The position numbers and the translations under genes are program-made. The notes under the pieces were generated by a model. That model worked only from the letters and a program-made list of their open reading frames with translations, searched no databases and was not told where the DNA came from. Shown piece after piece: positions 14,509 to 19,732 of a stretch of DNA of 37,057 nt. The first letter of the stretch is position 1. Each line of letters starts with the position of its first letter. This DNA comes from Hyphomonadaceae bacterium (GTDB taxonomy: Bacteria; Pseudomonadota; Alphaproteobacteria; Caulobacterales; Aquidulcibacteraceae): positions 1 to 37,057 of the forward strand of contig JAKFWO010000027.1 of the NCBI GenBank assembly GCA_021731815.1. Reading direction: 5' to 3'.

Positions 14509-15000
14509 GAGAACTCCCTCTTGTGGCGCGCGGGGGACTGTTCGGCCCACCGCAAAGCCCGCAAACCCGGCGGGCGGGGAGAGCGCGGTCCGGGCAGGGA
14601 GCCGGCGAAGCTCCCCATCCCTTCCGCACCGAGGCGCGCCACAAAGCCCATGGGACCGCGCTTGTCAAGCCCCGTCCGTGACCCCGACATTCCATGCCCG
14701 GAATTCCTTTCGGATCGCGGCCTGACGCAAAAGTGATTACAGATTGATTTCCCAGCGGAGGCCAGATCCGGCACATCTGATCCCGATTGTTGAGGCGGGT
14801 TCCCGACTGACGGCGCGGAAAATTTGCGCCACCGGCGTGGGGCGTGTCAACGACACGAATTCGCCTCGTATTACTGTTGAATAATCGTGTGCTCGTTGCG
14901 TCATGCGCAAGGTCTTTCGTCGATCTGCCAGGACGTCGAACTGTGAAGACAGTGCACTTTCACCCTGCAAGCCAACCAGCCTGAAAGGCGATTGATTCCC
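14509..15000. other. Divergent intergenic region between rplK and the Val-x-Arg protein gene
   Basis: These 492 bases carry the candidate rplK promoter and leader. A small perfect hairpin, CGTGTC-AAC-GACACG, sits at 14843-14857. No secE, nusG or tRNA-Trp gene was found in any frame or on either strand. I could not identify a convincing promoter for the plus-strand gene. Confidence 0.7.
14640..14668 (-). promoter_or_regulatory. Candidate sigma-70-type promoter of the rplK cluster
   Basis: On the minus strand a perfect TTGACA -35 box (14668-14663, inside CTTGAC) is followed after 17 bases by TTTGTG (14645-14640) as a weak -10 box. It lies about 130 bases upstream of the rplK start. A CTTGAC -35 is typical of alphaproteobacterial housekeeping promoters. 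The poor -10 box is the main doubt. Confidence 0.45.
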
Positions 15001-15366
15001 ATGAATTCCGCGCGCATGACAGTCTCCCCGTTCAAACTTCCGGCAGCCGCATTGCTGGTAGCCGTTGGCACCTTCGCCCTGGGTTCGGCCTGGGCGTCGG
15101 CGGGTCAGGTTCCACCGGCCCCCGCGGAAGAAGTGGCGTCCGAAATCGCCGGGGCCACAGCGACGACCTCCGCCACCGCGGCAACGGGCACGATTGCAGC
15201 CGACAAAGCCAAGGCCGCCAAGCGTCTCGAGGCGCTGGATGCGGTGCGCGATGTCGAACGCCCCGAGCGCGTGCAGCGTGTCGAACGGGTTCAACGCGTT
15301 GACCGTGTTGAACGGGTCGAGCGCGTGGAACGCGTCGAGCGCCCGGATACGGGTGGCGGAAGCTGA
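15001..15366 (+). CDS. Small secreted protein with C-terminal Val-x-Arg triplet repeats
   Basis: Unrecognised protein of 121 residues. A signal peptide is clear (hydrophobic core about 13-30, likely cleavage after ASA at 32-34). Then come a Pro/Ala/Glu linker, an Ala/Thr-rich stretch (50-67), a short Lys/Arg/Ala segment (68-84), and ten successive triplets at 85-114 of the form V/P-E/Q/D-R, ending in PDTGGGS. The repeat segment is strongly charged and has a hydrophobic residue every third position. I chose the ATG at 15001; AAAGG lies 12 bases upstream, and a TTG at 14992 is an alternative with better spacing. The mature protein is probably periplasmic or surface-associated; its function is unknown. 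The next gene on the same strand, 294 bases on, encodes a barrel-like exported protein. Confidence 0.7.
   Translation: MNSARMTVSPFKLPAAALLVAVGTFALGSAWASAGQVPPAPAEEVASEIAGATATTSATAATGTIAADKAKAAKRLEALDAVRDVERPERVQRVERVQRVDRVERVERVERVERPDTGGGS
15253..15342 (+). repeat. 9-bp coding repeat, ten units
   Basis: The DNA behind the Val-x-Arg triplets is a series of 9-base units close to GTCGARCGC. Units differ mainly at third codon positions (GTC/GTT/GTG, GAA/GAG, CGC/CGG/CGT), while the protein pattern is kept. This suggests that the repeat has been under selection at protein level after expansion. Confidence 0.85.
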
Positions 15367-15503
15367 TTTGATCATGCGCGGCCGGTTCCTGTGGTTGGAG
15401 GCGACCGCGACCTTTTGATCGAAATCGAACCGGGAACGGGGCGTTGCAGCCGGGATTAGTTCGGGAACTGTGTAGATCCCCTGCGGGATGCGTCAAATCC
15501 CGA

Positions 15504-15591: not shown

Positions 15592-15621
15592 CCGGATCGT
15601 ACAAATCCGGATCGTACAAAT
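15592..15621. repeat. 15-bp perfect tandem duplication upstream of the barrel gene
   Basis: CCGGATCGTACAAAT occurs twice back to back, 40 bases before the start codon. TTGACG follows at once (15623-15628). The duplication may place a pair of binding sites in the promoter or leader, or may simply be a replication slip. Confidence 0.85.
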
Positions 15622-15660: not shown

Positions 15661-16575
15661 ATGACCAGCAAATTCGCGTTCACTGAGATCCGGAAGCGCA
15701 CAGCCAACCGAGGCCGTCACCGCGCGCTTCCCGGCGCCCTTCCCGGTGCCCTGTTTGCGGGCTTCACTTTGGCGCTCATTGCCGCCCCTGCCGCCCTGGC
15801 CCAAACCGCCCCGGCCGATTCAGCACCCTCCCAGTCGCAGGGCGATGGTGAACGCCCGGAAAACCGTTCGCTCCGGCTGTCACTGGCGACGGGTGTCGAT
15901 GTCAGCGGCGGCGATTTCGGCGACGAGAACGGTGTCGTCACCACGACGATCGCAGTTCCCACGTCGCTCCGGCTCAACTGGGGTGATTTTCGCTTCAGTG
16001 TCACAGTGCCGTGGCTTTCCATTGAAGGTCCGGGCGGCGTGGTGGCCGACGGCGTTATCATCGACCCCGATGCAGTCGGGACCGTCGAAACCAATTCCGG
16101 TCTTGGCGACGTAACGCTGGGGGTGAATTATTCCGTCCCTTCCGCGCTGACGGGCAATTGGTTTGTCGAGTTTCAATCGCGCGTAAAGATCCCGACCAGT
16201 GACATCGAGGATGGCCGCTCCACCGGCGAGGTCGATGTCGGATTTACCGGCGATGTCGGCTACAGCTTCGGCAAATTTTCGCCTTTTGTGTCGGTGGGTT
16301 ATCGTTTTCGCGGCGACCCCGAAGGAACCGACCTCAACAATACGGTGTCAACCTCGGTCGGCGCGAGCTACCTGATCGGCAGTGGCGTTTCCGTGCTCGC
16401 CACCTATGATTACCAACAGCGAACCGTTGACTCAGCCGAAGCCAGCCAGGAAATTTTTGGCGCGTTCTCGGGTCCGGTCGGAAAGAAAGTACGCTGGACA
16501 CTCTATGGATCTGTGGGCCTCAGCGATGGTGCGCCGGGCGGCGGCGCGGGCTTCCAACTGACCCTGCGCCAATAG
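15661..16575 (+). CDS. Putative outer-membrane beta-barrel protein
   Basis: Exported protein of 304 residues, probably an outer-membrane barrel. The ATG at 15661 follows AGGGGGAAACC, a good ribosome-binding site. A long signal peptide has a basic N-region and a hydrophobic core at about 31-46, with cleavage expected after ALA at 45-47. It contains a duplicated ALPG (22-29) encoded by a 12-bp repeat. The mature part shows many alternating short strands ending in aromatic or glycine turns, for example SLRLNWGDFRFSVTVPWLSI and the VGYSFGKFSPFVSVGYRFRG region. The overall pattern resembles the 'transporter' barrel proteins of phenol-pathway/MetA type, but no specific substrate can be named. The last residues (FQLTLRQ) lack the usual terminal aromatic. 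The gene is followed by a convergent gap. Confidence 0.75.
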   Translation: MTSKFAFTEIRKRTANRGRHRALPGALPGALFAGFTLALIAAPAALAQTAPADSAPSQSQGDGERPENRSLRLSLATGVDVSGGDFGDENGVVTTTIAVPTSLRLNWGDFRFSVTVPWLSIEGPGGVVADGVIIDPDAVGTVETNSGLGDVTLGVNYSVPSALTGNWFVEFQSRVKIPTSDIEDGRSTGEVDVGFTGDVGYSFGKFSPFVSVGYRFRGDPEGTDLNNTVSTSVGASYLIGSGVSVLATYDYQQRTVDSAEASQEIFGAFSGPVGKKVRWTLYGSVGLSDGAPGGGAGFQLTLRQ

Positions 16576-19200: not shown

Positions 19201-19355
19201 GTCGGCAGCGCGGGGGATCCGAATCCTCGGCCTCAGCCCCGGAACGGTGGCGACAGACATGATGGCGAAGATCGGGCAATCCGGGATCAACCCGGTCAGC
19301 CAGCTCGACTGGTCAACCCACATCCGACCGGCATGGCCGGGCCAATTTCGGCCCT

Positions 19356-19694
19356 GGAGCGCGTTCAGAAAAAGTGGAATCCGGTTTTTCGCCTGAACGC
19401 GCTCCAAATCATTGAATCTGAGCATTTTCAATGTAGACATCCGGCTCGGATTTCCTTGAAAATGCTCTGGAGCGCGTTCAGAAAAAGTGGGATCCGGTTT
19501 TTCGCCTGAACGCGCTCCAAATCATTGAATCTGAGCATTTTCAATTCAGACATCCGGCTCGGATTTCCTTGAAAATGCTCTGGAGCGCGTTCAGAAAAAG
19601 TGGGATCCGGTTTTTCGCCTGAACGCGCTCCAAATCATTGAATCTGAGCATTTTCAATGTAGACATCCGGCTCGGATTTCCTTGAAAATGCTCT
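19356..19694. repeat. 113-bp double-hairpin element, three tandem copies
   Basis: Copies start at 19356, 19469 and 19582, with an exact 113-base period. Each contains two inverted repeats. The first is GGAGCGCGTTCAG / CTGAACGCGCTCC (13 bp, for example 19356-19368 with 19393-19405); its loop holds AAAAA/TTTTT that can extend the stem. The second is GAGCATTTTCAA / TTGAAAATGCTC (12 bp, for example 19420-19431 with 19456-19467), with a small inner ATCCG/CGGAT stem. Copy 1 differs from copies 2 and 3 in the first loop (GTGGAAT versus GTGGGAT). Copy 2 differs from copies 1 and 3 in the second loop (TCAGACA versus GTAGACA). It resembles palindromic intergenic elements scattered in alphaproteobacterial genomes, here in tandem. 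It is too long and structured for a CRISPR array. Confidence 0.92.
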
Positions 19695-19732
19695 GGCCAA
19701 TGGTCAGGCTGGTCTGGCTTGGCGACCCGCCA

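Follow-up and report, generated by a model that had tools for sequence, protein, structure and literature searches.

The window (the whole stretch of 37,057 nucleotides analysed here, from contig JAKFWO010000027.1 of a Hyphomonadaceae bacterium) contains two neighbouring genes on the forward strand: one for a small protein ending in arginine triplets and one for an outer-membrane beta-barrel. The features of this region are as follows.

15001..15366, forward strand: triplet-protein gene, 121 amino acids (synonymous saturation; tail-protein genes also adjoin the barrel gene in relatives)
15001..15102, forward strand: signal-peptide-like N-terminus, residues 1-34 (by eye)
15103..15252, forward strand: Ala/Thr-rich linker, residues 35-84 (sequence)
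15253..15342, forward strand: ten triplets (nine V-x-R, one PER), residues 85-114 (sequence, shuffling, codon comparison)
15343..15363, forward strand: C-terminal end PDTGGGS (sequence)
15390..15409, forward strand: terminator-like hairpin 3' of the triplet gene (weak; 2 found in the region against 1.2 expected by shuffling)
15592..15621, no strand: perfect direct repeat of 2 x 15 bp, about 40 bp before the ATG of the barrel gene
15661..16575, forward strand: outer-membrane beta-barrel gene, 304 amino acids, PF13557 member, FapF-like (Pfam, PDB profile search, homologues)

The ORF 15001-15366 is a real gene. Residues 85-114 of its product are VER PER VQR VER VQR VDR VER VER VER VER, and the middle residue is Glu in seven triplets, Gln in two and Asp in one. 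The first-pass annotation had described ten Val-x-Arg triplets; the number is correct, but only nine follow V-x-R, the other being P-E-R. It had also called the protein secreted. A hydrophobic N-terminus, which stops at ASA-GQ (by eye, with no predictor), and the Ala/Thr-rich linker are indeed present, and the protein looks exported. Its end, PDTGGGS, resembles RPGGGS at the end of a tail protein from a related genome (G067). The two genes of the window are separated by 294 bp and the weak hairpin; the corresponding gap is 62 and 102 bp in two relatives.

The periodicity is unlikely to be a chance product of composition. When the C-terminal two thirds of the triplet protein was shuffled, none of 500 shuffles reached its run of ten Arg residues at a spacing of three, and the next-longest such run among the 353 stop-to-stop frames of at least 60 amino acids in the window was six. 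Comparison of the ten units gave 25, 9 and 88 differences at codon positions 1, 2 and 3, respectively, each out of 135 comparisons. The 88 third-position differences fall inside the range of 57-92 (mean 77.8) expected from independent synonymous draws, for which the codon usage of seven window genes was used. Third positions are saturated, and the earlier remark that synonymous changes have piled up with the protein pattern kept is borne out. These units might be old copies that selection on the protein has maintained, or exact DNA repeats might be avoided through codon choice; either origin means a translated and kept pattern. The opposite view, that GC-rich DNA has produced a non-coding shadow frame here, could draw on a 212-residue antisense frame (14737-15375, reverse strand), which spans the entire triplet gene, and on the lack of a detected orthologue. 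It is contradicted by the codon-position pattern, by the signal-like start and by comparable genes that adjoin the barrel gene in relatives, and seems very improbable. The antisense frame is itself probably a shadow of GC-rich coding DNA.

Pfam and NCBIfam gave only chance-level matches to the triplet protein, in agreement with the statement that no named family has this design. The first-pass annotation had proposed a same-frame orthologue in relatives as a test; none was found among 100 related genomes, all from outside the genus, and this weakens the finding. The protein matched 81 of 101 genomes, its own included, at E values up to 1, nearly all weakly. The best non-self match among the 100 relatives (E 1e-4) lay in a frame of 617 residues, and plasmids gave no match. 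What rescued the finding was the gene neighbourhood rather than direct homology. Genome contigs were also scanned, which yielded at least three loci, one of them in Pseudomonas sp. JM0905a. In this locus, VER/IER triplets form the end of a DUF5666 protein, and a homologue of the window's barrel comes next. This arrangement moved attention to the barrel gene that neighbours the triplet gene in the window.

The window barrel matches PF13557 at 33.9 bits (gathering cut-off 22). The cut-off is also passed by the barrels of loci L091 and L082, whereas the homologous barrels of L032 and L076 fall short. The nearest barrel found came from Novosphingobium; a homologue on a Novosphingobium RL4 plasmid shows 40% identity over 292 residues, and that of Pseudomonas JM0905a shows 31% over 230 residues. 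When a five-row barrel profile was compared with all PDB sequences, FapF was the single match up to E 10 (1.7e-4). With a 28-row profile, the value for FapF was 3.5e-6, and the next match was TodX at 0.0089. The COG4313 channel structure 4RL8 was matched in neither of these sequence searches. The P-T of the PTG motif occurs in 23 of the 28 profile rows; this motif is described for FapF and COG4313 in the available parts of PMC5557850 and PMC6173800. The model of the barrel was weak (pLDDT 51.6, with 15 strand segments; FapF is a 12-stranded barrel). In a fold search with this weak model, FapF came first by E value (4.5e-4) with TM-scores of 0.30-0.34, below those of several porins, and 4RL8 ranked lower at E 0.026 with a TM-score slightly above that of FapF. 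The fold search therefore adds little. On the sequence matches, the window barrel probably belongs to the FapF/COG4313 superfamily, and its relation to FapF would be at the superfamily level only.

With the window's own genome counted, 13 of 60 genomes in the family and 39 of 398 in the order carry barrel homologues. At the phylum level, with its own query profile and E 1e-20, they were found in 14 of 398 genomes. The order search gave 45 matches in the 39 genomes, and 30 were read as loci; two matches outside the 30 (G061 and G069) were read as L157 and L158 in the phylum set. One of the 30 (L103) ends at a contig edge and was excluded. Of the 29 testable order loci, 23 have a charged low-complexity neighbour that is predicted to be exported (L090 being weak), both properties being scored by eye in flanks of about 1.5 kb. 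In 11 of these 23 (L088, L091, L093, L094, L096-L101 and L114), the neighbour has an Arg run of at least five at a spacing of three, a class assigned by script. The window is L088 in this list: its triplet protein carries such a run in the C-terminal part, and the gene lies beside the barrel gene. The neighbours in the other 12 are D/R-rich (L105, L107, L111, L115, L116 and L117), acidic (L092, L095, L106 and L109), of KAE type (L089, read as L076) or rich in Ala, Glu and Arg (L090, the weak case, read as L077). Six of the 29 have no charged neighbour in the flanks (L102, L104, L108, L110, L112 and L113; three of them were read as L071, L066 and L067).

Of the 14 further loci from the phylum set, 13 have a charged neighbour; nine are clear and four are weak or have no visible signal. 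These neighbours include ERPERPEKPEKPEKPGRGG in L150, DRDI tetrads in L162 and acidic V/E repeats in L159-L161. The weak cases are L152, L157 and L163, and L162 has no clear signal peptide in the listed frame; L154 has no charged neighbour. Among six plasmid loci, that of Novosphingobium RL4 has a charged neighbour and five have none in the flanks read (L084 and L086 from annotated features, L085 from features and the ORFs near the barrel). Electrostatic matching by total charge was rejected, since the net charges of partner and barrel were not correlated (rho 0.29, p 0.27, n=16). Apart from this, a GLKRRGDGSIDD-like motif is common to the partners in L115, L116, L117 and L076, whose genomes belong to two families; L115 and L116 have it in repeated form, and L076 has a repeated variant. 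Subtilisin-like protease frames lie near the barrel gene in L077, L106, L109 and L157, and those in L106 and L109 have acidic low-complexity N-termini.

The location of the tails was examined with a 39-residue (E/D)RP tail from L091 as query. The 14 genomes searched had been picked for having a barrel and a charged neighbour, so that the search bears on the position of tails and not on their frequency among genomes. It gave 15 matches in nine of the 14 genomes, and 14 of these lie within 2.6 kb of a barrel gene; the tails already known in G221 and G234 escaped the search, and others elsewhere may likewise have been missed. The exception is in the window's own genome (L126, G000:C21:37218-37274). 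It is an internal PDGPDRPDWPDRPDRPV stretch (DRP), not a tail, in a protein that looks like a GcvT/YgfZ-type protein. In eight genomes (G221, G117, G189, G062, G341, G353, G067 and G206), a DUF5666-type protein and a helical-repeat protein at one locus both end in xRP triplets. Tails are borne by at least three builds of protein (the short linker type of the window, the helical-repeat type and the DUF5666 type), with up to two per locus. The window linker was compared with the pre-tail part of 21 partner proteins, and nothing convincing was obtained (L097, L111 and L027 were marginal). The pre-tail parts look unrelated, which means that the tail, and not the rest, is common to the partners.

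The locus in families f4 and f5 further includes a DUF6502 gene, a GGxGGTG/DUF5666-type gene and a helical-repeat gene; DUF6502 was tested in L098 and assigned elsewhere by resemblance. Eight genomes gave a DUF5666 match at the barrel locus; the protein of G221 was below the cut-off, and that of G353 was assigned by resemblance only. The DUF5666 protein of G234 runs off its locus, and several genomes have further DUF5666 proteins elsewhere. In Pseudomonas JM0905a, genes for an acidic Gly-rich protein, a DUF6502-like protein, the DUF5666 protein with the VER tail and the barrel lie in a row. A Rhodocyclaceae MAG has DUF6502-like and tailed DUF5666 genes, with no barrel in the part read. In relatives and in JM0905a, DUF5666 (PF18914) GGIGGTG proteins and DUF6502 (PF20112) proteins share the barrel locus, and triplet ends of the xRP or VER type occur there. 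The window protein differs in having no DUF5666 domain. No DUF5666 match was found in it or in its own genome, so that the window holds a two-gene version of the locus, like G130.

The first-pass annotation had said that a period of three fits neither a standard heptad coiled coil nor a plain beta-strand. This overlooked two other structures: polyproline II, which has three residues per turn, and an alpha helix in which E(i) pairs with R(i+4). For seven of the ten acidic residues in 81-116, an Arg is present at i+4, and AlphaFold2 with a single sequence predicted a helix over residues 42-113, with block-mean pLDDT values of 88-94 over residues 61-110. These features would suit a rigid rod or a stress-protective polyampholyte that acts alone in the periplasm or at the LPS, the barrel gene being merely co-regulated. 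ECF sigma and anti-sigma-like genes, which flank the pair in several genomes (g20, g15 and g35; those of L107 were the ones tested against families), are consistent with such a role. On the other hand, the helix was predicted from one sequence, and the tail matches are almost confined to the barrel locus, although the search was not exhaustive. Furthermore, Pro replaces Val at every third residue in many relatives, which a helix does not tolerate; this argues against the helix and agrees with an unfolded chain or polyproline II. We consider the lone rod or protectant unlikely, and we think that what is conserved is not one fold but a chain that is extended and regularly charged. As a separate observation, genes for ECF sigma and anti-sigma-like factors lie next to the barrel gene in L103, L105, L107, L111, L113, L115, L116, L117 and L151, which suggests regulated expression of the pair.

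It is likely that the two gene products of the window share a function. Our best reading is a locus of an undescribed type: its barrel, which is FapF/COG4313-like, acts together with charged, disordered partners that it probably exports or docks. The ORF 15001-15366 would then encode a polyampholyte that is exported and acts as partner to the outer-membrane barrel encoded downstream. Sec would deliver the triplet protein to the periplasm, where it would remain extended and unfolded, and the regularly charged tail would engage the barrel. The barrel would most likely hand the chain to the cell surface, or hold it threaded there. The model for this is FapF, which is thought to pass the unfolded FapB and FapC. 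We infer the physical contact, the direction of transport and the surface location of the triplet protein; export or threading of the tail is suggested because the gene pair recurs, because tails concentrate at the barrel locus and because FapF is the best sequence match of the barrel. We give this reading a probability of about 40%.

In the available part of PMC5557850, FapF is described as a channel through which amyloid subunits pass unfolded, and the authors discuss how disordered substrates might be threaded by electrostatics. The window barrel is like FapF in that its profile matches FapF over other solved structures and keeps the P-T in most rows, and its partner, like FapB and FapC, looks exported, repetitive and probably disordered. 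However, FapF has an N-terminal coiled coil and a helical plug, whereas only about 25 residues lie between the apparent signal and the first strand of the window barrel (by eye). No Fap-like operon was seen by eye among the ORFs neighbouring the barrel gene. In addition, the FapD-type C39 peptidase (PF03412) was matched in none of four genomes (the window's own, G000, and G013, G130 and G062), whereas eight of 14 control genomes gave a match. Membership of the Fap system was rejected, since neither the coiled coil nor a Fap operon nor the C39 peptidase was found.

A sub-case of the export reading, and the one nearest to the fibre idea of the first-pass annotation, is that the barrel exports the subunits of a fibre or an amyloid-like surface matrix, as FapF does. 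The repeats here are charged triplets, many of them with Pro in the relatives, and high charge and Pro are unfavourable for amyloid. The FapC repeats are, by contrast, Asn/Gln-rich, according to the available part of PMC5557850. A fibre of this kind appears decidedly improbable. The first-pass annotation had also suggested binding to an anionic surface such as LPS, peptidoglycan or nucleic acid; nothing in the analysis pointed to such binding.

In the main rival of export, the barrel takes up small hydrophobic molecules as a COG4313-type channel, and the charged protein is not its cargo but a periplasmic plug or spacer, or a tether to the inner membrane or peptidoglycan. The COG4313 uptake channels, which take up hydrophobic compounds, belong to PF13557 (available part of PMC6173800), and the window barrel, like them, scores above the cut-off of this family. 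Unlike those channels, the window pair has no recognised aromatic-catabolism gene among the surrounding ORFs (by eye). Tail proteins of the DUF5666 type start with a hydrophobic segment that has no evident cleavage site, and their long Pro/Glu-rich stretches give them a TonB-like layout (both by eye). TonB-like proteins, which span the periplasm, direct a comparable Pro- and charge-rich extended region towards the outer membrane. The tail proteins differ from them in having no folded C-terminal domain, and no ExbB or ExbD was seen by eye in the loci read. The PDB sequence searches, which matched FapF and not 4RL8, also disfavour a plug or tether, as does the rank of 4RL8 below FapF by E value in the fold search, where the model was weak and the TM-score of 4RL8 slightly the higher. 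Moreover, a plug or tether has no obvious need for tails so varied in length and chemistry. This alternative is rather unlikely, and we retain export or threading as the preferred reading.

A bolder form of the export reading is that the C-terminal arginine-triplet tail is a modular tag, recognised by a FapF/COG4313-type barrel that moves the tagged protein or anchors it at the cell surface. We hold this to be doubtful. If it were true, an export or anchoring route would be addressed by a periodic charge pattern with no fixed sequence, and this route would span Pseudomonadota, with variants that use other charge periods. A tail that serves as an address would mean that proteins could be routed to the outer membrane, or across it, by a simple pattern of charge.

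FapF-like barrels also occur outside Fap operons, where they are so far unexplained. In an HMM survey of 2013, 69% of the FapF hits were counted as false positives, which its authors took as a sign that FapF belongs to a larger protein family (available part of PMC3792158). Pairing with charged low-complexity proteins gives such barrels a testable role, and it gives the DUF5666 and DUF6502 proteins a context. In the literature searched, few papers naming DUF5666 and none naming DUF6502 were found. None was found that joins "FapF-like", "low-complexity" and "outer membrane", and no description of the pairing was found.

Elsewhere in the window, at 19354-19696, there are three copies of a 113-bp tandem repeat, which are 97% alike. 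The repeat unit contains the inverted repeat GGAGCGCGTTCAG ... CTGAACGCGCTCC.
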